From contig NC_092671.1 of assembly GCF_964355755.1 (NCBI RefSeq), positions 24,197,070 to 24,261,069 on the forward strand: DNA of 64,000 nt. Reading direction: 5' to 3'. Source of the stretch: Antedon mediterranea. Its lineage: Eukaryota; Echinodermata; Crinoidea; Comatulida; Antedonidae. The translations under genes and the position numbers were made by a program. Below are positions 5,833 through 49,392 of this stretch, one piece after another. Each line of letters starts with the position of its first letter. The stretch's first letter is position 1. The notes beneath the pieces were generated by a model, which saw only the letters and a list, made by a program, of their open reading frames with translations, had not been told where the DNA came from and did not search any database.

Positions 5833-6363
5833 ATCTTTTGGCACATATGGCGTTTCATACATATAACACTTGACCTATTTTTTCCCGACAAAAATCAAAA
5901 CGACGACTGGTGGACAACATGAAAAAGACAAATTTACAACAGACTGGGAAAAGCCTATTAAAAAACTGTGTGTACTTTACAGAAATATGTGAAAACAACA
6001 TTTTGAGAAAATGACATTTTTATATTTAATTTCCTATGTTTTTATGTGTAAAATTAAATGTTTATCTCATAATTACTATAATATGAAGCATCAGTTGATC
6101 TTCAGATATACCTTTTTGGATAGATCTGATAATGTAGATGATTTTCCGTGAATAAAAAAAAATACTTTATTTTGACATTGTTTGACCTCTTGACCACATA
6201 AACTGACCTTAAAACCCAAAACTGAAGATGGCATCCACCCCTATCGTTTTTGTCACCCCACAAAGGATACATTCAACATGGTTGCCTGCTATTAACAAAA
6301 AATGCCCCCCAAACTTTTTATAGAGGACTTTTGTGTATTTGGCCTTTCTACTATTACCATTAT

Positions 6364-8690
6364 TCTTTCCAATCCGGGTTTTTAAGTATCTCCCAGAAAC
6401 GAGGGGTGATATCACTTATACCGAAAAAAGATAAATCTCCGCTATTATTGAAAAACTGGCGTCCTATCTCGCTTTTAAATGTAGATTATAAAATCTTAGC
6501 AAAAGCCATTGCGACTCGTTTAAAAAGTGTGCTGCCATCAGTAATTAATCCTGATCAAACGGGCTTTCTCAAAGGCAGATATATTGGGGAAAACATAAGA
6601 TTAGTCTATGATGTAATAGAATATGCAGAAATGCACAACAAGCCAAACTTACTGTTTTCGATAAGGTGAAAAGGGACTTCCTTGATATGTCTTAAGAGAT
6701 TTGGTTGGTAAAAATATGATAAATTGGATAACAATATTATATAAAGACATTGTTAGTTGCGTTATAAATAACGGGATAACCTCAAAATTCTTTAATTTAA
6801 AACGAGGCCTACGTCAAGGATGTCCCTTATCCCCATAACTTTTTATAATTTGTGCAGAAATACTAGGTAACATGGTACGTCAATCAGACACATTTAAAGG
6901 TATAGAGTAGTGTACAATAATGTAGACATAAGAATTTAGTCAATTTGCAGATGACACTGTGTTTTTTCTCAAAGACCAAAACTCAATTAAACCGATTATA
7001 GATATACTTGATGAATTTTCTATATATTCTGGACTCAGAATTAATTATGAAAAAAGTAACATTATGAGAATAGGATCGTTAAGAAACTGCGACTATAAAA
7101 CGCCATCTGAGAAAAGTATTTCATGGACCAAAGGCCCAGTAAAATACTTGGGTGTTAATATTTCTTGTAATTTTATTGATATTTTCAGACTCAATTTTCC
7201 AGATAAAGCTAAGGATGCTGAACAATTATTAAATATGTGGAAACAACGCTCACTTACTTTGTTTGGAAAAGCAACTATTATTAAGTCACTGTTTCTCCCA
7301 GTATGTTTTCTCAAATTTACCAGACCCACCCGATTGTTTCCTTCAAGATATTCAAAGTAAAATATTTAAATTTATATGGAACGGAAAACCCGATAAAGTC
7401 AAAAGAAAAGTCATGCTTAACAATTTTGACGAAGGAGGGTTAAAAATTCCCCATATTAAGAGTTACTGTACATCTCTCAAATCATGTTGGGTGAAAATAT
7501 ATCTTGATGGAAATCAATCCAAGTGGAAAGTGTTTTTAAAAAGTAAGATTAAAGAGGTTGGAGGAAATATTGTTTTCGAAACCAACTTTTCTAAATCTTC
7601 AAAAATATTAAAACAATTTGAAAGGTTCCATAAAGATATACTCTCTGCGTGGAGTGAATACAATTTTGTAGAACCGTATACGATAGAGGACATCTTAAAT
7701 CAATCTTTATGGAACAACTCATGTTTTGATAAAAGAGAATTTAAAGTTGAAAAAAATTGGTTGGTTCAAAATGTAAACTATGTAAAAGATATTGTGAACA
7801 AAGAAGGGAAAATATTAGAACTAGACGAATTTAACCATAAATATAATTTTAAACCAAACTTCTTATTATATCACCAGATTGTAAATTCAATTCCAAAGCT
7901 CTGGAAACAGAAATTAATTGAACAAGGTGTAGACACAACTAATGAAGTTGAATCTAAATTACAGACATTTATTTCTTTGAAAACGAGAAATTGTCATTAT
8001 ATCTATAAACACATTATATTAAAAAATGTTGAAGAGCCAATTGGAATTGAATCCAAATGGGAAAAGGAGTTTGACAACAAACTTGATTGGAAAAACCTTT
8101 TCTCAAATTCACACGACTGTACAAATGACACCAAGCTAAAAAATTTTCAATTTAAATTTATTCATCGTATAATTTATACAAATACAATGCTCTTTAAGAT
8201 GTCAAAGGTCGATTCACCAATGTGTAGTTTTTGCAAGGAAAGGCAGGAAACACTGCTACATATGTGCTTTGAATGTGATCTAGTAAAGAAAATATGGGAA
8301 AATGTAAAACAATATATGTATCGAAATATCAACAATAACTTAATTATCACCAAAGAAAGTATATGTTTTGGTTTTGGAAAAACACAGTGATGCAAACATT
8401 CTAATTTTAATTACGAAGTGGTACATATTTAGTTGCAAAATCAAAGAACAATTACTTAATTTTAATCACTTAATGCACATTTACCAAAAATACAAGGCAA
8501 CCATATTATTATTTACAAAATGATTTTTATAAAGTGTATTTTTGCGATACATTATTATTTTTTTTTCTTTTAATTCATTACTCTCTTATTTTTGAAAGAG
8601 TATTATCGTGTTTCTTCTTATTTGTTTAATAGTTACGCTACCTTTATCTATTAATTTTGTATTATGAAAAAAAAAAAGAAAAAAAAAAGT
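6364..8690 (+). pseudogene. L1/Tx1-like LINE ORF2, 3' half, with 3' UTR and poly-A
   Basis: RT continues directly after the insertion: SISQKRGVISLIPKKDKS, NWRPISLLNVDYKILAKAI at about 6448-6503, then INPDQTGFLKGRYIGENIR. After a broken motif-A region come GLRQGCPLSP (about 6808-6837, stop right after) and the catalytic FADDTVFFL at about 6943-6970. The C-terminal part (7263-8390) contains NKLDWKNLF and a CCHC-type knuckle, CSFCKERQETLLHMC, near 8224-8268, as in L1/Tx1 proteins. There are frameshifts at about 6660, 6900 and 7290 and several stops. The 3' UTR ends in the A-rich tract at 8664-8690, which reads as the poly-A tail. Confidence 0.85.
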
Positions 8691-9430
8691 ATGCAGATGA
8701 TTCTGTTGTTGTTGATAAGACCAAAGAATTAATTTTTGATTTCAGAAAGAAGAAAAGTGTTATCGATAATATTGTATTAAACGACCAAAAGATAGAAACT
8801 GTAAAAGAACATAAATATTTAGGAACAACGGTAGATTGTAAATTAAATTGGAATGCAAATACTGTAAATATTTGTAAAAAATGTAATCAACGGCTGTACC
8901 TTCTCAGAAAGCTGAACTCTTTCAGAGTGAATAATGATGTACTTTTTATGTTTCACCAGAGTGTTATTCTTAGTGTTGTAACTTTCAACTGTGTTGTTTG
9001 GTACAATAGTCTGAGTGCTAATGATAAAAAGAAACTTGACCGTACTATGAAAACTGCTAGTAAAATAATAGGAAGGAATGTCAATGTTATCGACGCAGTT
9101 TACAGGCGCGATGTTATTAGCCAAGTTAAGAAAATAATGGAAGATAACTCACACCCATTGAATGATAAATATGTTGTTAATAAATCAGCTAGAATTCGTC
9201 CTTTAATGTGCAATACCACTCGATGTAGGAAATCATTTGTCCACAACTCTATTCATGTTTCCAACACAACATTCCAAAGATAGTTTGTTTACTTCTGTAT
9301 ATAGTTTTAATGTATTGTATTGATATTTTTAATGTTTTATATATTGTATGTGTTTTTAAGCATCAAGGAACACCAATTTCATGTTCGCCTTGTTGTGTTC
9401 ATGACAATAAAGATTTATCTTATCTTATCT
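8691..9430 (+). pseudogene. 5'-truncated L2/Rex1-like LINE, RT C-terminus and 3' tail
   Basis: The frame opens with YADDSVVVDKTKELIFDFRK immediately after an A-rich tract, so the 5' end is truncated within RT motif C. It continues with EHKYLGTTVDCKLNW, RLYLLRKLNSF, KTASKIIGRNV and RIRPLMCNTTRCRKSF, and stops at 9281. These blocks match the C-terminal half of the L2/Rex1 group of LINEs. The last bases are CATGACAATAAAGATTTATC followed by repeated TTATC, the short terminal repeat typical of that clade. Integration at the poly-A of the preceding LINE is likely. Confidence 0.8.
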
Positions 9431-24755: not shown

Positions 24756-24825
24756 AATTGCAAGTTGTTGATTTTAACAGCTTTAATGAAGAGCAGTTGA
24801 TCAAAGAAATGTTACAGATATATTC

Positions 24826-26944
24826 TGTAATGTTGAGTTACATTTACAGATGGATCCTAACAAGGTGGAAGCTATACAAAAATTCCCAAGACCAACCAAT
24901 GTCCCAGAACTGCGTAGATTAATGGGATTGGTTAATTTTGTTAGGAAATTCACCCCAGATCTAGCAGATGAAACAAAGCCGATGCGTGATCAACTTAAGA
25001 AAGAGAAAAAGTGGATGTGGGACGTGATGCAGGAGCAAGCTTTTACTAAACTGAAAAAGAAGCTGTGCTCACCACCAGTACTAGCTCACTATAGTCCACA
25101 TCTAGCTACTAAAGTTTCTGCTGATGCATCATCATATGGACTTGGGGCAGTGTTGCTGCAAGAAACAGAGATGTGCTGGCGACCAGTCTTCTATGCTTCG
25201 AGATCGATGACCACAACAGAGCAGCGATATGCACAAGTTGAAAAAGAAGCTTTGGCTGCTACTTGGGCTTGTCAAAAATTTGCAGATTTCTTAGTTGGCT
25301 TACCAACGTTCACTATAGAAACAGATCGTCGCCCATTACTTGCACTTTTGAAGACAAAGGCTATTGATGAGCTTACTCCGAGAATCCAAAGATTTCGTAT
25401 GAGATTAATGAGATATACATACTGTATCAGATGAAATACACAGCTGGAAAAGACTTGACTACAGCTGATGCGCTTTCTCGAGCTCCAGTGGGACTTCCAG
25501 ATGAAAGTGAAGTTGAGTTGGCGGAGTCGACAGCTGCATTTGTGCATGAAGTAGTTACCAGCAACAACACAGAAATTAAACAAGATTAAAGAGGCACAAA
25601 TGGCTGATCCCGAATGCACACAGGTGATAAAATTTACCAAGGAGGGATGGCCCAAGAAAGGAAGAATCGACTCCAATCTTATTCCGTACTATCAAATTCG
25701 AGATGATCTTACAGAATTAGATGGATTGTTAATGTTTGGCACCAGACTTGTAATCCCGGATCCTCTAAGAGGTGACATCTTAAGTCGTATACATGCAGGA
25801 CATCAAGGGATCGTAAAATGCAGAGCTCTAGCTAAAATATTGGTTTGGTGGCCAGGGATTAGTAAGACAATCCAGAATCTAGTAGACAAGTGTACAGTAT
25901 GTGAAAAAGAAAAACGACAGCGACCAGAACCGTTGCAGCCGAGCAAAGTTCCAGAGTACCCAGTATTTTTGCTCGATTTGCAGACAATTATGGATTTCAC
26001 CATGAATGTAACAGTCCATACTTCCCACAAAGTAATGGCGAAGCCAAGAGGGCGGTTCAGACAATCAAGAACTTGCTGAAAAAAGCGGATGATCCATATA
26101 TGGCACTGTTAAATTACAGGGCAACACCATTACAATCAGGATTTAGCCCAGCTGTTAATGGGAAGGAAAATACGAACAAGAGTTCCTATTGTGACCAACA
26201 GCTTGACACCAGACTGGCCTCAATTCAACAAAATGATTGCAACAGACCAATCAAGAAAAGAGAAAATGAAAATGTCATTTGATAAAAAGCATAGAGCAAA
26301 AGAACTATCAAACTTACCTGTGGGAGAGAAAGTGTGGATAACACACCCAATGGAACGAAGTGGTACCGTACATCGTAGAGTTGCACCGAGATCCAAACTT
26401 CAACAGGAGTTACAAGGCGAAATCGAAAACACCTTAGTAGACGGTCAGAGCTGTATCCTCCGAGGATGCATCCAATACGGGAGGGATCGACCTTGCCCCC
26501 GGTGGCAGGTCAAAATAACAATGAATTGGATTTGTAATTTATGCAACAATGATTAAACTTAAATTGTTAACTACAAAAAATCAGATGACTTGTTTATAAT
26601 CCATATAACGGATGTATGACGTTAATTGTTGAGTTGGTGCTATAATTTTAAAAGAACAAAAGAAGATGCATGTTTAGTGTTTAAACTTCTATTAGCATAT
26701 TTATTTACAACCTTGTTTTACGAGTTCCTCCAAAGAAAGGGAGATGTAATGTTGAGCTACATTTAGGCTATAGCGCCACCTATAGACGAATGTCAAATAA
26801 ATAGGTCGTTGGCCTAGCGATGTAAAACGTGTACATGAGCATATTTATTGTTGTACTAAAACATCATTATAAAGCCTTCCAGCGTCCAGTGAGAGACGTC
26901 CACATATTCGATAATTTAGTTTTTCAACTTGGTCTTATACAACA
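24826..26944 (+). mobile_element. internally deleted gypsy-type LTR retrotransposon
   Basis: The pol order is RT connection, RNase H, then integrase. At 24850: VEAIQKFPRPTNVPELRRLM, then VSADASSYGLGAVLLQ (RNase H active-site Asp). After a frameshift near 25430: YTAGKDLTTADALSRAP. At 25600 onward: an HHCC zinc domain (RIHAGHQGIVKCRALAKILV, VDKCTVCEKEK). The integrase core with both Asp residues is deleted between EYPVFLLDLQ and the SPYFPQSNGEAKR block (about 25985-26050), which keeps the Glu. Near the 5' edge only 21 bp of LTR survive, joined straight to RT at a shared ACATTTA. Gag, protease and RT fingers/palm are absent. It lies in an exon of the hAT-like element. Confidence 0.85.
26745..26944 (+). 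repeat. 3' LTR of the gypsy element
   Basis: A purine tract AAAGAAAGGGAGA precedes TGTAATGTTGAGCTACATTTA; the first 21 bp match the 5' remnant at 24826 with one change. The LTR is short (about 200 bp), starts TG and ends near CTTATACAACA. No target duplication was found, which fits the rearranged 5' side. Confidence 0.65.
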
Positions 26945-31105: not shown

Positions 31106-32604
31106 TTTTACTACATTTGGCCAATCACAGTTCATTATTTATGGTCATATTTTCTGTTATGTATTTGACCTGATAATGAAGCTCCACCTACTTCAATAAT
31201 CTGGGTGACAAAAACATAAATCAAGCCATTATTTCCAAATTATGTCTCAGTCACAAATAAAGGTTGATACTCATGAGAAACTGAGGGTATGTTCAGACTC
31301 ACGGAGTTACGGTGGAGTTATGCAAGCGGCGTACATATTTTTGTGTCTGAACCATGCCGCGGATTAGCGTTAGGGAGCTGTTACTCCGCGCCAGTGGCGT
31401 TAATAACTCTAGCGGGAGAGGGTAGATTTCATAACGCTAATCCAGTGATGCATCAGTGATTTTAACCTTAACCAATGAAAATACATGACCACGATTAGCA
31501 GACAGCAACTACATACCCGTACCCTATGATACGACAGCGAAATAGCCATGTCAAATGTATTTTCAGGTTCAGATTTTAAAGAACAGTAAAGTTGGCGTCA
31601 GTGATATGATATTTTTAGTCGCGTGGAAGCGACTCTATAGTTCACTATGTCGGTCGGTCGGTCTGTCTGTCGGTCCGGTATCACTATGCGTTTTATCGCT
31701 TTCTGACCTTATCTTGATATCAGTTTAATCTAGCTAGGTCAATTTTTCACAGTATATTCCTTATGGCCAGGAATCAATGTGGTTATGTTTTCACGGTGCG
31801 CAATAAAAAATTACGCGGTCTACGCACAATTTAACGAAATCACGTTTGTAATCATATCTTCACAACCATGATTCACAATTAAATAAAATTTGGTACTCAT
31901 AAATTTCAGGGCATAAATCATCATATGGCAATACAATTACGTGCGTAGCGCATGTAACGCATGCGTACGCGCGCTTAAAATTTTCAAAATTTATTTTCGA
32001 TGAAATAAGAGTACATTTCAGGCAATTTTAAGCGTTTACAAAATTGCCATGAGTGCGCATATTTTTGCGCTCGCTAAATGTTATTGCGCACTCTTTTTGC
32101 CCGATTTCTGTTTTCTTGACTTACTTTTCAACTCGAAATTACGTTATACGAGCACGTCGAAAGTGACAGGCTACGCACGTGTAAATTAAAAAAATATAAA
32201 TGTTTTTAAACATTTCAACATTTTTAAAGTGGAGGTGTACTCAGGGCTTTTCCTTCAGTTATTTACTCCAGTATATTAATATTAGTAGGTACAAACATAA
32301 AAAATCATATCAAAATAAACAGTTTCTGAGAAATCAGAAAAATAAAAAAATGTTTAAAAATATCGAAAAATCGCTGTGTATTTTTTTCAGCAGTTAGGTA
32401 ATGACCTTAGTTGTAAAGGTCACGTTACCGTGTTATGTTATGTCACGTCTCCTCTCTCTCTCCTCGATATCGCTCGAGCTGTCAAGTCGCGCTACTACAC
32501 GTGTATCATTTTCCTCTCATCACAGTACACATCCGATCGAACGAACATTTTATTATTGTCTTGCATTTTGTTATTACTTTTTGCGTCTACTCTTAGCTTC
32601 AAAA

Positions 32605-33145
32605 TTAAGCACTGTATGGTATATAAGTGCCATAACAAGTCACATAGAGATAAGGACGTCAGTTATCATCGCATGCCGCTGAAAAACAAGCAATTGATGA
32701 AGAAGTGGCTTGAAGCCTTGAAACTTAAAAATCCGCCACAGAAAGGGATCTGCAGTGCCCACTTCGCGGAGGATGTACGGAGACAAGGGTAGAAAGACGA
32801 TTCGCCCTGATGCTGTTCCAACACTGCATCTTGGCTATAAGATTCAATCGAGGTCGGAATCTTTTCGAACATCTAGCGTCAGCAGGCTTATGCCTAGTAC
32901 ATCATTATTTGAAGAAAATATTGAGGTATTTACTTTTATGTTTTGTTTATTAATTATAAATTTATAATATAATAAATAATAATTTCACGCTGATGGTAGG
33001 TATCTAATCTACTAGCCTATTTAGTATTATAATGGATAGCTAGGGCCTAGGCCTAGCCAGTATAGAATAGTTAATATAGGACTAGCCTATATTATACTAT
33101 AATACTATACTACTCACTTGTCGGCCAGCTAGGCCTAATAATACT

Positions 33146-33180
<35 letters not shown>

Positions 33181-35121
33181 GATAATAGAATACTATTCTA
33201 GCATTCATAAATATAAATGCTACTGCTGGCTAGACTAGAGAGGGGTAGGTTCCATGGTAGGCCTCTCTTTGATATCAAACACCATGAGAGATGCTGATCT
33301 CTTTTTCTTATGGTTATTATACTATACTCTATGGTTGACCTTGTTAATTACACTAATTAATTGATTAGTCTAATCTCTCTGTTTGAGACAATGGAAGGGC
33401 TGGAAGTGGGATGTGTTAATTATTATCACAGGCAGTATAGCCTATTCTGTGAAACTGTTTACTCTATGCCTTATACTTTACTAAACTGAATTTATTGATA
33501 TTAAGTTGATAATATTGTCATTTCTGTATAATAAAATAGTATTACTGTAATGTAATGGTAATCAAACAAAAAGCAATGCAAAGCCATCCAGAAAACAAAT
33601 ATACTGGACATTATTTAAATGTTGTTTACATACTTTTGTTCCCCAGGATATGACAACCTACAGGGAAAGCTGATTGTAGCTGGAGACTGTAGGCATGATT
33701 CGCCGGGCCATAATGCGACATTTGGGACCTACTCTCTAATGGATACAGATACCGATCTGATATTGGCCTCTAAGACGGTATCAGTAAATGAGGAGGGGAT
33801 ACCAAATTCTCATCATCTTGAAAATGTTGGTTTAAAAAGATGTCTTGAAGAATTAAAGGTTTGAAATCTTGTGTTTTTCTGTGCTACAGTAGATGTCATG
33901 TTTTCAGTAATTTTTGTTTTGTATAATGTAGAAAATACATACATGTTTATTGTTTTACAGGAACACAAACTGAATGTTGATATTATATCCACTGATCGCC
34001 ACCCAATGATAGGAAAGACTTTACGTGAAAACTACCCAGAGATAAAACATGAGTATGATATATGGCACCTTGCTAAATCTGTGAGAAAGAGAGTTGCAGC
34101 TGCAGGAAAGAAGCACAAAGAGTTGCAAGTGTGGGAAAAAGGCATCATTAACCATCTGTGGTGGTCAGCCGAAACCTGCCAAGGAAGTGTCACACAGCTC
34201 ATGGTAGGGATTTATTAATGTAGAATGTTTAATAATTAATCTCAAGCGACAGCAGTTTGTTTTAATCACTAATAATGCATTCTGAAATATATTTAACAAC
34301 AGGAACGTTGGACCTCTATTGTGCGTCACATAGTTGACGAACATGATTGGATTTGTGGCTTCGAGTACATGAAGTGTAGTCATCCTCCACTTGAAGCAAA
34401 CATGACAAAACCCTGGCTAACACCAGAAAGTGATGCCCATAAAGCACTACAAGATATTGTTACAAATAATTTACTTCTGCGTGACTTGAAGAAGGTGAGT
34501 TATGCATTATGTATAAATAAATAGCTTTTCAGTATTGTGTGCATTCACTGGAGGTATTATCATTAAGATAAATTGAATACAATTTTTAATTTACTGTATT
34601 TCTATTCAGGCAACAGAATTTTGTCACACTGGAAATTTAGAAGGATTCCATAACATGATGCTGAAGTACATGCCCAAACGTAGCAAGTTTGAGGACGAGG
34701 GAGCAATAGCTCGTACATATCTGGCTGTCATAGACAACAACATGACATCGAACAGATCATATGCAACATTGGCCGATGGTGAAAGTCAATACCGTTTGGA
34801 GTGGTCCAAAAAATCCAGAATGTATGTGGTTAGGCGTGTGAAGGAAGCAAAGAAATATACCTTCAGGAAAGACTTGATGAAAGGTGTTTTTGACCGCGTC
34901 ATCCACGGTTAGTTAATTGCTTTTAATCTGAACTCTTCATCATGCAAACATGCAATGAAAGAATTTACAGTACTGTATATACACCTTTTTATGTATTTTA
35001 CTTAACAGGCAAGAAGACTAAGTCTACCTTCGTGAAAGGAAAAATGAAGAGTTATATAAGGAAGGAGACAAAACCAAGTAAAGCTGAAGCTGTGGCAAGC
35101 CACAAGTCAAGATTGAAATAA
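32605..35121 (+). CDS. THAP-domain transposase, six exons
   Basis: Exon 1 (acceptor CTACTCTTAG before 32600, donor after 32925) encodes a THAP zinc finger: C at 32613, [24 protein letters not shown] near 32752, and after a one-base frame change the closing PDAVPTLHL. The catalytic part follows: 33647-33858 ([19 protein letters not shown], first acidic residues), 33961-34203 ([30 protein letters not shown]), 34313-34494 ([16 protein letters not shown]), 34610-34907 ([35 protein letters not shown]) and 35009-35121. All junctions from 33858 onward keep frame and have good GT/AG. Motifs GDxRHDSPGH, TDRH and DIWHLAK mark a widespread animal transposase family of DDE type (inference). The shift between CSAHF and GRKTI means this copy is either dead or mis-sequenced there. 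An exon linking THAP to 33647 was not checked. Confidence 0.8.
33133..33185. repeat. AAT/ATT microsatellite palindrome
   Basis: Runs of AAT then ATT in an intron of the transposase gene form a perfect AT-rich inverted repeat. It is simple-sequence DNA. Confidence 0.75.
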
Positions 35122-35820
35122 GTGTTTACTACTGTTATTACTGTACTGAAAATGGTTAATTTAATGCCTACAGTATATTGAATCGATTATAGATCTTCAG
35201 GATCAATGGCGAGTCCCATTTTAAGTTCATGTAAAATTTATACTGCTTTGATGTTATGATTTCATTAGATGGCATCTGAATTTCAAAAATTGGATGTTTC
35301 GTCACAGTTCATCACATTAATTAGAGCGTGTATCTTGTTATGAATTTTCTCCAAAATTGCATTCTGAAACAATTCCCTTTCACATCAAATTGTTTTCATA
35401 ATAGTTGCACAAAATCCTGTTTACAATGCTAATACTGTACTGTCAACTGTTGAATGGTAGAAATTGCCTTCAGCTAGAGTAGAGCTAAATATTTTGCACA
35501 ATAGTTTAACTTGTATCCATAATTGTTGATAGTTTTAATTTAGTGTACTGTAACAAGTTAATTATTGTTAGTCAATATTTTTGAAAGCACTAATAACTGC
35601 AGTTTTTATTACAAAATAAAGATATTTTATTTCTCATACTATTCACCATTATTTATTTCATTTTCTTATACATACATTAGTTACACAGTTATAACTACTA
35701 CCGGTACAATATCAAACTGTAGTGGTATCATATTACAAGCAAATAATTTTGTAAAAAATACAGTACTGTACAGGTTATAAAGTACTAGAGGCAAGTGTTA
35801 AATGCATACAAACATTTATA
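35122..35820. other. shared 3' region of two convergent genes
   Basis: No coding frame. Plus-strand poly-A signal AATAAA at 35615-35620 serves the transposase; minus-strand AATAAA (TTTATT at 35652-35657) serves the facing gene. The predicted 3' ends therefore nearly meet or overlap. Confidence 0.55.
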
Positions 35821-36657
35821 TCAACCATCGTCGGAATTAAAAGGAAGTCCATCCACATCTATAAATCCTGTATAGATCCCACTATCCTCCGGATATTTGT
35901 CTCTAATTGCCCATACGCAGCATGATGGAATAGGCCTTCTGTCGTTTTTTCTTAGTCGCGAATACACCCACCAAATGTAGCATCTGTATGCGATAAATCG
36001 ATAAGTTCTGAAAATAAATAAATTTACAGTCAGCAGTTGGTCAAAATACAACTGGACAGGAACACACAATATGCAGTACACAGCCACAGTGGAAGGAGAG
36101 TATTAACATTGAATTAAATTGCATTAAATGTATTTTTATGACCCTTGCAAATCGTTAAATTTTGCACTGCAAATAAAGACTGATATTTTGCTCGAAAATT
36201 TTAGATTTTTAAGCCCTATCGAGCGGCCGTACTAGGCCTACATACAATTATTACTAGCTAGGCCGGCGTACCTACCTGTTCTTAATTTCATCTTGTGTCA
36301 CGCTCTCGCCAAGAATGTCCTTTTTTGAGACATAAACCAGCTCTAATACATCCTTGTCCATGCAAAGTTTTTTAAATTTCTCATTTATCAAACAGGTATT
36401 TTCTCCAATTTTGTCTTCTAATTCTACCCTCTCTCTACAACAAACGCTCCCCTTTACATTCTTCATTAAACGGCAATTTCCACAATGACACCAATCAAGC
36501 GAGGTTAATCTCCATTCGTCTCTCTGTTGCTGGGGCCTAGCTAGGCAGGCCTAGGCTGATTTACATCTTCGCCGTCGGCAGTTTGAGATGTTTGTATGGG
36601 CCTAGGTTCTGGTTCAAATGCACCATGTCTTTCAGGTCTAGGCCTACGATTAAACAT
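35821..36657 (-). CDS. P2X7 intracellular (ballast)-domain-like cysteine-rich protein
   Basis: Minus strand, two clear exons. Exon 36550-36276 reads SLDWCHCGNCRLMKNVKGS, VCCRERVELEDKIG, CLINEKFKKLC. Donor GTAGGT, intron 36275-36008, acceptor TTTTCAG, then exon 36007-35821: TYRFIAYRCYIWWVYSR, RRPIPSCCVWAIRDKYPE, SGIYTGF, stop. The junction is phase 2 and keeps frame. The CxCGxC, CCRE, C..C, AYRCY.W and LPSCC.W.IR...P...GxYTGF order is that of the zinc-binding ballast of P2X7, known from the literature to exist as separate proteins in invertebrates. No transmembrane segment or P2X ectodomain is present. Upstream the ATG at 36657 (MFNRRPRPERHGAFEPEPR) is in another frame; a 35-nt GT...AG segment (GTAAATCAG...CCCCAG) between them would restore frame if removed, but it is short for an intron. 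The gene lies inside a TTAA transposon, facing the transposase. Confidence 0.8.
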
Positions 36658-37020
36658 TGCCGTTTGATCCGTCTATCCACGCAATAACCACGCAAAACAA
36701 TCTTAATCTTAGACTTATTATTCGTATCCTAGTTTATCGAGTCGAGAAGAGATCGATCGAGTCGAGCGCGAGGAGGATCGGCGGAGGCGGCGAGGAGAGG
36801 CGAGTAAAGAAAGCCAACAGCTCGCGCATGCGCAAATTGATTGACTCCCTAGAAAGTAAAAATTACCCACTTGGCTCAAGTGGGTAGTTTTTTTAATTAC
36901 GTTAATTACGCAAAAATAAATTGGTCAACCCCTAAAAAACACATCGGGAATGAAAAATTTGGCTTCCGAAGAATCTGAAAACATATATGCATAATATTTT
37001 TGGAACTTACATATATTTTT
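36658..37020 (-). promoter_or_regulatory. candidate promoter of the ballast-like gene
   Basis: The region directly upstream of the minus-strand gene is CpG- and palindrome-rich (GATCGATCGAGTCGAGCGCG) and contains GCGCATGCGC at about 36824, the core of an NRF-1 site. It also has a hairpin CCACTTG-GCT-CAAGTGG near 36870. A second copy at 60829-61215 keeps all of these features. Promoter function is inference. Confidence 0.45.
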
Positions 37021-37924
37021 TACGATTTTTTTAAAACGCATCGTTTTTTTTCAATTTACATGCAAATGAATAGGGAAAAAGGTTTGTAATTTGAACTATC
37101 CCCCCAGATGGCATTTTTTGATGTTTTTCAGAATAACCATACAGCATACAACAAATTTAAAAAATACCTTAATTTAGATGAAAGTAATGTTTATTATGAA
37201 CTGAATAAAATAAAAATGTGAAATTTTTTGAGAGCACCTCCACTTTAAACATGTTCAGTAATTTCGGTCAGTATAGTTCACTATGTCGGTCGGTCTGTCT
37301 GTCTGTCTGTCTGTCGGTCCGGTATCACTATGCATTGTAGCACGCGACTTAATGGCTGTTGGCCTTGTTATAAATTAAATCAATTAATCAGATAATTATG
37401 CGTGTAACAATTACGAACAAATCAGTATATTTGAAGGTAAACATTATATGAATAAAAAAAAACAATGTTAACTTTCATGCATTGTCATGAATGTATACAT
37501 ATAGTTCTATCTGCTTTGACCTGATCAGAGTGTTTTAAACGCAAGGCATTGGAATGTTGGTCGTTGTGTCTGAACACCTTGGCTTTTAATGCCACGGATT
37601 ACCGTACGCCTTGCGTAGATAACTCCACCGTAACTCTGTGAGTCTCAACATACCCTTAGATACAGTCTGCCTAAAATTTTGTGCACCCTGTGGTTTAATG
37701 TGTTTACACACACGGCAGGGATTGTCTAAGGTCATGCATCTGTACTGTAACTAATTTGAAATCAATTTTGGTAATTTTTCAAGTCAGTCTATGTACATAA
37801 AATAAATTCCTGAATAAAAAAATTTTGTGGCGTATTAAGCATTTTATGAAGTAAAGAGGTTTTTTTTGTTTAAAAACAGGGGCTGTTCCAAATGAAATTG
37901 CCAAAACATGTGTGTGAGCATGGA

Positions 37925-39050
37925 GGGAGAAATATCCATACAGCGAAAGGACAGAAATAGACATGGTGGAGGAGTACGCTTATATGTAAAAGAGGACTTT
38001 GCATTTAATTGTAGAAACGATGTTTCTGATGATACCGAAGCTGTGCTGGTTGATATTCTCCTTCCAAAAACTAAACCTATCACCATCGGAAGTATTTACA
38101 GACCTCCTAAGGATGGTAAATTCTTGGAAAAATTAGAAAATATTTTTTCTCTTCTGAGGTCCGACTGCGAGTCATACATATTGGGTGACTTCAATATAAA
38201 TTTCAACCAGCCTAGCTCCGGTCTCTTAAATAATTACAAAAACATACTAAATCTTTATGGTTTTATTCAAATCATAAATAAAGTTACCCGTTATTCCATA
38301 AATACCTCCTCATTACTTATTTTAGGAAAAGGTAATCGATCACACGTTCGTGAATATGAACTAAATGCTGTTGGTTATTTGAATGTAACAAACAGTAAAA
38401 TTGTTACAACTTGTACATGTACATAAAATTTATTATGGAACATCCATCCCATATATGTATCCCCATTTTGTCAAATTAAGTACCGTCCATAAACATGAAA
38501 CCAGATCTAGAAAATATAACTTTCAAATCCCTCGCCTAAATGGTGTTGGACAAACCAGCTTCTTTTACAACGGAATAAAAAACTGGAATTCTCTTCCAGA
38601 TTGTATTAAGGCCACAACCTCTACTAAGTTGTTTAAACACAAAGTCAAAGAATATTTTAAGAATGTTCCATAATGTTTCCTATATGTAATTTCACTTAAA
38701 GTAATTGCGTTTAATATATTGCTAAAATAAATATAATTAAAGATGTCTAAATTTTGTCTCAGCTAAATGTACATAAGGACTTAGATGGAAATAAGTTACA
38801 CCGAAAATGTGAAACTTTATCTAATTATCCTTGGTTCATTTGTTCTGTTACCATTGTTTGACGCCTTCTGTTTTTTGTATATTTCTGGAGTTGTCTTTGA
38901 ATTTGATGTTTTTGTAATTTGTCTGTTTTTAAAATGTATTTTATGTATGATCAATCATGGTGTACTGCATGATTGTTGCATGGATTGGAATGGACAATGA
39001 TTTTTAATCATCATTGTTGTTATAGAATCTCATCCCCCTGCAAAAAAAAA
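37925..39050 (+). pseudogene. CR1-like LINE with internal deletion
   Basis: The endonuclease part (37925-38320) reads RKDRNRHGGGVRLYVKEDF, IGSIYRPPKDGKF and SYILGDFNINF. It is joined near 38400 to the RT C-terminal tail (HETRSRKYNFQIPRLNGVG, SFFYNGIKNWNSLPDCI, LFKHKVKEYFKN), so most of RT is missing. The 3' UTR runs to about 39050, ending CATCCCCCTGC before an A run. The endonuclease keeps the GDFN motif, but the element is not functional. Confidence 0.8.
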
Positions 39051-45741: not shown

Positions 45742-46649
45742 ATGATCGCCTTTCAGGACGTTCTTCATGGATCAACGAACAGATAAGTACTCTCGTAACC
45801 TTTGTGTTATCTGTTACCAATTGAAACTTAACTTTCATCAAATTGACATTTCTGACTCTTTGAATGTAATGTTATTGTCTCATAAATCAAAAGTAATTAA
45901 TTAATCATTTCCTTGCATCATTGCATTGACTTCTTATGACGTTTCCTCATGATTTTCACCTTTTGTATTTTACTTACCCATTTTCGCCATCGATTTCGGC
46001 TTGATTTGTTTGTGTTTTATTTCTCTGTTTTTAGTTTTATGTTATTACCATATTCACACAGAGTATTGACCTTTGTATGCTTCAATATTCAATACGTTTG
46101 TGCATGCGTGTGGGTGGATGTGTGTTGGTGTGTGTGATGGTGTGTTTGTGTGTTATATCTTATTGGTATCTTAGTTTTTAGTCTTCATTGTTTCTCAGTA
46201 TAAAAAATCTCTAAATAATCAGATTACATTGCCATGTGTCATTGCTTTGATTTGAACACTATTATCATCCAAGTGTTTAAGTGCCTGATTGCCATATTCA
46301 TGTAGTTTTCACAATTGTTTATACCATTCCATAATGTTCTCTTGTTTTGCAAATTTTAGTTCCTTGCCGGAGTTCTGTTTAACTCACCTTATTTTGACAG
46401 TCTTGTTTTTATGCATTGTTAATTTTTCTTTTTTCCAATATTCATTTTGATATAATATTTTTTTATTTATTTATACAGTGTATACTTATTTATATATATT
46501 TTATACATATATTTTAAATTATATATTAACTAGTATTTTCACTGAACAGATTTCTCTTTTTATATTTTCATTTTGACTAGATGTAAAACCTTAACGCAGA
46601 TGACGGAACATCGAACCACGACCGATTATCAAACATAAACTTCTTCCCC

Positions 46650-49392
46650 TTGCCCAGCTATTCAGACAACCGTGACATTAACAGGAGCCTTGGCAATTCT
46701 ACATCTAACATTGATCCCGACTCTAATTTTTTCACCAACAGCAACCACAGTCCCTCTCAATATTATGATCCTAATGAATTTCCTGTTGACTCACTTTCTG
46801 ATTGCTTCTCCACTATTCATTTCAACTCTAGAAGCATCCTCAAGCACATTGATGAAATTAAACAACTCCTATCATCCATTAATCTGTCTTTCGATATTAT
46901 TGGAGTAAGTGAAACTTGGCTCAAGTACGATAATCCTTTGGTCCAACTCCCAAATTATAATTTTGTCTCTAACCACAGAACCCATAAAGACGGTGGAGGA
47001 GTCGCCATGTATATCCTTGATACTCTACAATTCTCCATTAGAAGTGACCTACACCCACACCCTTCCAACTGCAAATCCATCTTTATTGAAATTAAACGGC
47101 CTCATCACAAAAACATTATAGTGGGTACTGTATATAGACCCCCCTCCTCTGACCCAAATCAATTCTTAATTGAACTTGACATTGTCCTTTCCAATTTAAC
47201 AAAAGAAAATAAAAATGTTTATATTCTTGGAGACTTTAACATTGACATTCTGAAACATGAATCCGACAATACTGCCCGTCAATTCATTAACACACTGTTT
47301 AGCAATCACTATCTTCCACTTATCGACAGACCATCCCGAATAACAAATTCCACAGCCTCATTATTAGATAATATTATTACAAATCAATTTGATTGTTCTC
47401 ATATAAGTGGTCTGCTATATAGTGATATCTCTGATCATCTCCCTGTTTTTAATATTTCAAACCTCTCTGATAGTTTTGCCACTAGCTCAAACAATGAAGA
47501 GATCCCATCTCTCAGACAGATTAACAATACGTCTCTTAACAACTTTTACCATGATGTCTCTAATCTAACTTGGTTTGATATCCTTAATTCTAATGATCCT
47601 GACTTTGCTTATGACCTCTTTGATAACAAACTTAAAGCCCTTTATGACCAACACTTCCCGTTACTGAAAAGGAACAATACAAACAAGAACAAAAAAATTA
47701 AATCTTGGATGTCAAATGGCCTGCTCAAATCAATAAAGTATAAACATAAACTCTATGCAAAATTTCTTCACCGCCCTTCTCCTGCCAATGAAATCAAATA
47801 TAAATGATATCGTAATAAACTTAACTCCACTATCAAAATTGCCAAAAGAATTCACTTTCATGATATTTTCACCAAGCAAAAAAATGATATTAAGGCAACC
47901 TGGAAAGCAATTAACTCTTTATTGAACCATAAAAACCGAAACCAAAACAAAGGCAATACCCCTGTCAACTGTAACGGAGTACCAACTAAAGACCCCGTCA
48001 TTATTTCTAAAGAATTTAATGATTTTTTTGTCGAAATCGGACCCTCCCTTGCTAACAAAATCCCTCCCAGCAATGTTTCTTTCAAAGAATTTCTTCCTCA
48101 ACCAAATCCGAAATCAATGTTCTTAACCCCTGTCCTAGAAGATGATATCATAAGAATTATCTCTTCCTTCGATAACAATAAAGCTCCTGGTACTGATGAC
48201 TTCCATACTAAAGCCATTAAACATGTTATCAACCTTATCTCCCTTCCCTTGTGTCACATTTTTAATCTTGTCCTCTGCAAAGGTGTTTTTCCGAACAGGT
48301 TGAAGCTGGCGCGCGTTACCCCTGTTTACAAATCTGGCCCCAAATCCAACCTTTCTAACTATCGATCGTCCTATCTCCATCCTGTCAATCTTTTCGAAAG
48401 CCTTTGAAAGAGTTATCTATGATAGAACATTTTCATTTATCAGCAAACATAACATCCTCTTCAAGAGACAATATGGCTTTAGAAATGGACATAACACCTC
48501 CATGGCTTTGATCGACCTCACTAACAAAATTATTCATGCATTCGAAAATCGTCAATTTGAAATCGGACTTTTCATCGACCTTTCCAAGGCTTTCGACACC
48601 ATTGATCATAATATTCTTCTTTTTAAATTGTCTCACTATGGAATCCGAGGACCCGCCTTAAACGTTTTCAAATGCTATCTCACTAACCGCTCCCAATGTA
48701 CTAAATATTTTAACTCTATTTCTAATTTTTGCCCTATCACCTGTGGCGTTCCCCAGGGCTCCTTACTTGGCCCTCTTCTGTTCACCCTTTACATTAATGA
48801 TATCCACCGAACCTCAAACCTGCTAAATTTGTTTCTATATGCTGATGACACTACAGTTTGTCATGCCAACAAAAATATCCAAACTCTTTTTGACACGTTT
48901 AATACCAACGTTATCCCCTTGTCCCAGTACTTTATTGCCAACAAACTCTCCCTCAATCATAATAAATGTAGTTACATCCTATTCGGAACCCCGCAGTTGA
49001 CTAGAGGTATTGATGTGTCCCCACTTAAAGTCGTTATTGATAATCAAGAAATCCCCTCTGTAAAGTATAATAAATTTCTTGGCATTATCATCGACAACTC
49101 TCTCTCATGGAAACCCCATATCCAAGAAATTGAGAACAAAGTGTCTAAGAACCTTGGGATCATTTCTAGGCTTTCTTCCTTCCTCCCAACTAATATTCTC
49201 AGGACCCTTTATTGCACACTCATCCTTCCTTATTTGAGCTATGGTAACATTGTCTGGGCCAACACTTACCCTACAAACATCATTAAACTCTCTATCCTTA
49301 AAAAAAAAAAGCTATCAGGACTACTTTCCTGTGCTGCTAACCGCTATTCATTCAATAATAACATTAAAAATTACCTTTTGTCTCATTACTGA
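46650..49392 (+). pseudogene. LINE ORF2 (endonuclease, reverse transcriptase)
   Basis: Endonuclease: HFNSRSILKHIDEIKQLL, IIGVSETWLKYDNP, KDGGGVAMYI, TVYRPPSSDPNQF, ILGDFNIDIL and the closing SDISDHLPVF. RT: NNKAPGTDDFHTKAI, ARVTPVYKSGPKSNLSNYR, GFRNGHNTSMALIDL, LFIDLSKAFDTIDHNIL (motif A), CGVPQGSLLGPLLFTLYIND and LYADDTTVCH (catalytic motif), then KFLGIIIDNSLSWKPHI. Breaks: a TGA stop at about 47805, a 4-bp duplication (CGAT) near 48366 that shifts the frame, and a shift at the A run near 49303 followed by early termination, so the C-terminal end is missing. The start codon is unclear. Catalytic residues of both enzymes are still encoded. Confidence 0.85.

Follow-up and report, generated by a model that had tools for sequence, protein, structure and literature searches.

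In the genome of the feather star Antedon mediterranea, two TTAA sites enclose a THAP transposase gene and a cysteine-rich gene that resembles the ballast of the P2X7 receptor. Does the second gene belong to the transposon and, if so, what may it do there? The locus lies in a 64-kb stretch (GCF_964355755.1, NC_092671.1, forward strand 24,197,070-24,261,069), the whole of which is called the window here; coordinates of the element are window positions. Very probably the element is a Kol0-type Kolobok transposon in a decayed state, with a THAP/DDE transposase gene and, convergent to it, KolX. The Kol0 assignment would follow from KolX and the described Kol0 features.

The initial annotation knew of no described element pairing these two genes, a statement overtaken by Kojima and Bao 2022 (PMC9587614). 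According to the available part of that work, the Kol0 lineage of Kolobok encodes a transposase and KolX, KolX has the ballast fold, and other Kolobok lineages carry different accessory proteins or the transposase alone. In KolobokP the accessory gene lies downstream on the other strand; for Kol0 the same part of the text states neither the gene orientation nor a function of KolX.

The element and its two genes

The two-gene DNA transposon extends from TTAA to TTAA over 32224-37248. Its left target-site duplication occupies 32224..32227, where the homology with two further copies (L001 and L002) begins, and its right one 37245..37248. The left terminal inverted repeat (32228..32243, + strand) is made up of AGTGGAGGTG and 6 further bases, and the right one (37229..37244, - strand) has CACCTCCACT at its end; the inverted repeat is exact over 10 bp, with 14 of the first 16 positions matching. 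The two genes converge, the transposase being on the + strand and KolX on the - strand from the other end. That TTAA-flanked inverted ends surround a THAP transposase and a cysteine-rich gene, as first annotated, was thus confirmed, with Pfam naming both genes. Elsewhere in the window, long frames at 605-2278, 6226-9280, 37896-38423 and 46587-49389 resemble, by eye, pieces of a LINE endonuclease/reverse transcriptase, and frames at 24790-26553 resemble a Gypsy-type LTR element with reverse transcriptase and integrase words.

Six transposase exons were proposed from the letters alone, and six are indeed left in the window; the complete gene has at least seven, with exon limits set by eye. Exon 1 (32604..32925, limits by eye) encodes the THAP domain and passes the curated cut-off of Pfam PF05485 (E 3e-12), with no start codon and a broken frame. 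At 33473 some 732 bp are absent, which in L002 hold a conserved transposase exon with a frame of about 190 aa. The next four exons match the transposase profile. The first (33647..33858, limits by eye from GT/AG) carries the candidate first catalytic D. The second (33961..34203) contains the candidate second D (TDRH) and a DxxH motif (DIWH); its MULE PF10551 match of 23.9 bits is below the cut-off of 27.6. The third (34303..34494, limits by eye) has KCSHP, candidate zinc-finger residues, and the fourth (34610..34907, limits by eye) the candidate last catalytic E (LEGFHN). The last exon (35009..35121) is an open frame up to the stop, assigned by eye and lying outside the profile.

The catalytic motifs, assigned by eye, recur across the families described below as GDxRxDSxG, (S/T)DR, DIWH / DCWH / DIFH and LEGFHN / VEGYHS. 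The C/DxxH following the second D is present as in the Kolobok DDD/E transposases, also by eye. Residues like NHLWW..C..KCSHP recur between DxxH and the last E and are candidate residues of an H2CH zinc finger. The structure model of the transposase is poor (mean pLDDT 50), and the best rows of its Foldseek search are a mixture of RNase H-fold and unrelated proteins, with the P element structure 6p5a only at rank 34. Because the model is weak, a GTP-binding insertion domain is not inferable from it either way.

The window copy proved not to be intact. Apart from the stretch of about 732 bp and the THAP start codon, it has lost the frames of the THAP exon and of KolX exon 1, as judged against L002, and it cannot be autonomous in its present state. 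L001 likewise lacks the 732 bp. The KolX frame is broken in L001 too; it is open in L002 and L003, so that open-frame copies exist elsewhere in the genome.

KolX has two exons on the - strand. Exon 1 (36276..36657, frame broken near 36541) bears CHCGNC and the CC zinc cysteines, and exon 2 (35821..36007) runs through RxxAYR, PSC, IR and YTGF. When the cysteine-rich gene was tested against the P2X7 C-terminal Pfam model P2RX7_C (PF20478), both exons exceeded its curated cut-off, with E 6.5e-6 for exon 1 and 1.4e-13 for exon 2. A profile built from the KolX proteins of this genome retrieved from the PDB, at E <= 0.01, four distinct sequences, all of P2X7 (E 8e-18 to 6e-17). The fold predicted for the KolX of family B has pLDDT 74-92 over residues 91-170 (66.7 overall), its N-terminal half being of low confidence. 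The 14 best Foldseek rows for this fold are P2X7, one of them with E <= 0.001. Its Z against P2X7 is 8.2-10.1; values below about 13 can reflect a common arrangement in helical folds, but P2X7 is nonetheless well above the other chains, the next unrelated one having 3.2 (74 chains compared). Among these 74 chains no structural relative besides P2X7 stood out, and the BFVD search for viral relatives gave none at E <= 0.001 and 27 weak rows.

KolX contains the seven zinc cysteines that mark the P2X7 ballast and the ZCD proteins. CxCxxC, CC and the PSC/PAC cysteine are kept in all ten KolX families. The cysteine at the C506 place was found in eight of them; it was not found in the rows of F and K, where the gene is partly unmatched.

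Kolobok is characterized by THAP, DDE, H2CH, AG ends and TTAA in the available part of PMC6004289. The TTAA duplication was found in the window, L001 and L002, and at both ends in copies of B, C-short, D and E. The reading of THAP plus TTAA as a Kolobok signature is borne out by PF05485, TTAA, RR/YY ends and the DDE/DxxH motifs. A second gene with ballast similarity, a feature of Kol0, was recovered by PF20478, the PDB profile search and the predicted fold. With Kol0 of the Kolobok-1_XT type the element has in common TTAA, AG..CT ends, DDE with DxxH and a ballast-fold second protein, as far as PMC9587614 describes them; relative to the published Kol0 elements, the families found here are new. 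The Xenopus XKol elements share THAP, DDE, AG ends and TTAA, whereas a second gene, present in the window element, goes unmentioned in the available part of PMC6004289.

Copies and families in the genome

The initial annotation asked whether other copies of the same ends hold the cysteine-rich gene. With at most one mismatch allowed, the 354-Mb genome contains 35 occurrences of the end pattern and one of a control pattern. We read the match list as 12 pairs that face each other plus 11 lone ends. Three facing pairs, the window included, are more than 4 kb apart (5.0-5.8 kb), and all three enclose a ballast match; none of the nine shorter pairs (0.55-2.4 kb) has a PF20478 match. The two other 5-6 kb copies, L001 and L002, lie at other sites, are 94-99% identical to the window element and possess both genes. 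L001 aligns with it end to end at 98.1% identity; L002 aligns as two segments (98.8% and 94.1%) flanking an extra stretch. In both, the homology stops at most one base away from the TTAA. What remains of L003 is the KolX end, where KolX is open; the transposase and most of the element are gone. The idea of a two-gene unit with ballast identity is therefore borne out by repeated copies as well as by PF20478.

Across the genome PF20478 gives 70 matches, or 66 loci after neighbours are merged. Besides the window, 29 KolX loci and later also L039 were read, so that most score classes are represented by one or two members; those left unread are weak C8 loci (3.54-3.56 Mb and 23.03 Mb) and further members of the large classes. 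In ten families (A-I and K) KolX stands beside a match to a transposase profile of one lineage, and always beside a convergent one. The census took in all rows (83 + 95) of the KolX and transposase searches. A KolX match lies within 8 kb of 37 of 73 transposase loci, convergent in 35 of the 37, and a transposase match within 8 kb of 37 of 66 KolX loci; these counts are lower bounds, since the PF20478 search misses frame-broken KolX such as that of L035 and 71 of 366 first-look transposase candidates were scored. The two non-convergent close pairs (2/37) are a reversed second transposase fragment in the C' element, seen in L031 and L032, and a worn C8 locus.

Single genes also occur. At E <= 0.001 there was no transposase match in L003, L009, L010, L024, L025, L027, L033 and L034, and L015, L023 and L028 have one transposase fragment each. 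Conversely, no KolX match lies within 8 kb of 36 of the 73 transposase loci; four of these loci were read (L035-L038). L035 does contain KolX, with its frame broken. In L036 the 3.4 kb where KolX would lie yielded no match to the KolX side, L037 has neither a KolX match nor convincing TTAA ends, and L038 has no KolX in the 1.5 kb read beyond the transposase. Loci such as L036-L038 suggest that the pairing may not be obligatory. L037 (C5:15229500-15239400) is in itself a tandem array of three copies of a Kolobok-lineage transposase, repeating about every 7.0 kb and with 99.7% identity between the two parts read.

A THAP-like exon is recognizable by eye in families B, D and E. Both ends with TTAA-AG could be identified in families A, B, C-short, D and E, and a single one in C' (L031), H, I and J; those of F, G and K were looked for and not found. 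In family J one copy ends at TTAA and the other at GTAA. AG (CT) adjoins TTAA at the identified ends of A, B, C, D, E, H, I and J, which is the RR/YY pattern. Family E (L013:2466-8834, L014:568-6891) differs in the length of its terminal inverted repeats, about 480 bp versus 10-16 bp in A, B and D; long direct repeats like those of KolobokP were considered for it and rejected, the repeats being inverted. C-short is a family of about 3.1 kb with TTAA-AGATCATGGAACATGG ends, to which L009, L010 and L039 belong, along with about a dozen further matches assigned by score class. In its copies L009 and L010 the KolX gene is divided between two frames and a transposase match is missing; L025 is a broken copy related to the family. 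KolX-only copies as a sign of action in cis were set aside, because the L003 element is mostly lost and KolX of L009 and L010 is frame-split.

Distances between families in KolX correlate with those in the transposase (ten families; Mantel r 0.82, p 0.0001). The correlation persists without family I (r 0.60, p 0.0005) and without both I and K (r 0.57, p 0.0054). Between the KolX of G and I (90 codons) dN is 0.16, and between that of C and C-short (93 codons) 0.12, with dS saturated in each case; these two comparisons show purifying selection on KolX. Compared with family B, the copy with stops L015 has dN 0.62 and saturated dS, and the close, frame-broken copy L024 has dN/dS 0.73 (85 codons, 21 changes).

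Possible roles of KolX

From what is known of the family (PMC6004289 and PMC9587614, as far as available), the transposase would bind the ends of the element via THAP and would cut and join at TTAA by means of its DDE core. KolX would be an accessory subunit that cooperates with its own transposase; its most likely task would be to assemble or hold the complex of transposon ends and TTAA target. KolX has stayed in place, is under constraint and diverges in step with its transposase; it most likely helps the reaction as a separate subunit. Our best guess is that KolX is a zinc-dependent partner of the transposase, and we infer with roughly even chances that it acts directly in transposition.

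The main competitor, less probable and still to be taken seriously, is that KolX is a regulator or host-facing factor, concerned for instance with expression or silencing and standing outside the chemistry of transposition. It is a real rival because co-divergence, which in ten families fits a direct partner, could come from co-inheritance alone. Zebrafish nanor, a relative of KolX, is expressed at the midblastula transition and has a proposed role in transcription (PMC7016195, available part). The Kolobok lineages with other accessory proteins or with the transposase alone (PMC9587614, available part) point the same way, as do two transposase loci without a KolX match seen in this genome.

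The boldest reading gives KolX a nucleotide-binding role like that in the P element. The target duplication of the P element differs from the TTAA of this element. Its transposase has in common with that of the window the THAP domain and an RNase H-like DDE core (PMC7776569, available part). According to this proposal, KolX would be the subunit that binds guanine nucleotide within the transposition complex, and would supply in trans the function that the P element transposase has in its own GTP-binding insertion domain. The P2X7 ballast binds guanine nucleotide, and the P element, another THAP transposase, needs GTP (available parts of PMC7016195 and PMC7776569). Of the guanine-nucleotide residues listed for rat P2X7 in the available part of PMC7016195, equivalents of R546 and R578 are kept in 10/10 KolX families, H547 in 5/10, and R574 and K583 in 0/10; the full set is not required of other ZCD proteins. 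With two of these residues kept and two absent, nucleotide binding by KolX appears possible on residue patterns, but both kept arginines could be structural or hold DNA phosphates. The role is weakly backed, and we regard the nucleotide-binding subunit as improbable. Slightly more improbable still is its extended form, in which KolX would be an obligate transpososome subunit with a phosphate or guanine-nucleotide site in trans and the nucleotide site of P2X7 a leftover of a transposition cofactor site.

It is very unlikely that the KolX genes found here are part of piggyBac elements, another group that uses TTAA. A few piggyBac families are reported to have a KolX-like C-terminal part (PMC9587614, available part), and one of 37 piggyBac-domain matches lies within 20 kb of a ballast match (4.3 kb apart). 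However, this single neighbouring ballast match lies within a TTAA element of its own (L039:4764-7874), with the piggyBac gene outside, and the window transposase has THAP and Kolobok motifs; a piggyBac partner was therefore rejected. Least credible of all, to the point of rejection, is a single accidental landing of a ballast gene in the transposon: nothing was found in its favour, and KolX occurs in all three long copies and beside a convergent transposase in ten divergent families.

KolX and the tail of P2X7

As first annotated, the P2X7 tail would come from a transposon accessory protein; this is supported here and had been published before. According to the available part of PMC9587614, a P2X4-like gene fused with KolX to give P2X7, and zebrafish nanor is taken as a domesticated KolX. 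P2X7 ballast, ZCD proteins and nanor, as described in the available part of PMC7016195, share with KolX the zinc cysteines, the RxxAYR / PSC / IR / FP core and PF20478. The ballast of P2X7 is fused to an ion channel, whereas KolX here is a stand-alone transposon gene, and rat R574 and K583 are missing from it. We infer that the P2X7 tail is a captured KolX. In this genome P2X receptors are matched at C3:4.20 Mb and C3:6.7 Mb, at least 1.49 Mb from the nearest ballast match, and a P2X-ballast fusion was rejected, there being no ballast match within 1.4 Mb of P2X matches.

Stand-alone ballast proteins occur across animals, and other invertebrate ZCD proteins have a similar pattern of nucleotide residues (Rump and colleagues, PMC7016195, available part); the word stem 'transpos' is absent from the main text of that paper as available. 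The tick protein with a THAP-like part (printed TAHP) and a ballast in the same work may be a run-together Kol0 gene model, and its conserved neighbour markers may likewise be transposon genes.

The origin of the P2X7 tail thus stands in outline in a paper on mobile DNA (PMC9587614, available part). The ten co-diverging pairs of transposase and KolX in Antedon mediterranea, several with near-identical copies, are material with which to probe the ballast fold in the transposon. Its role there may in turn inform its role in P2X7.
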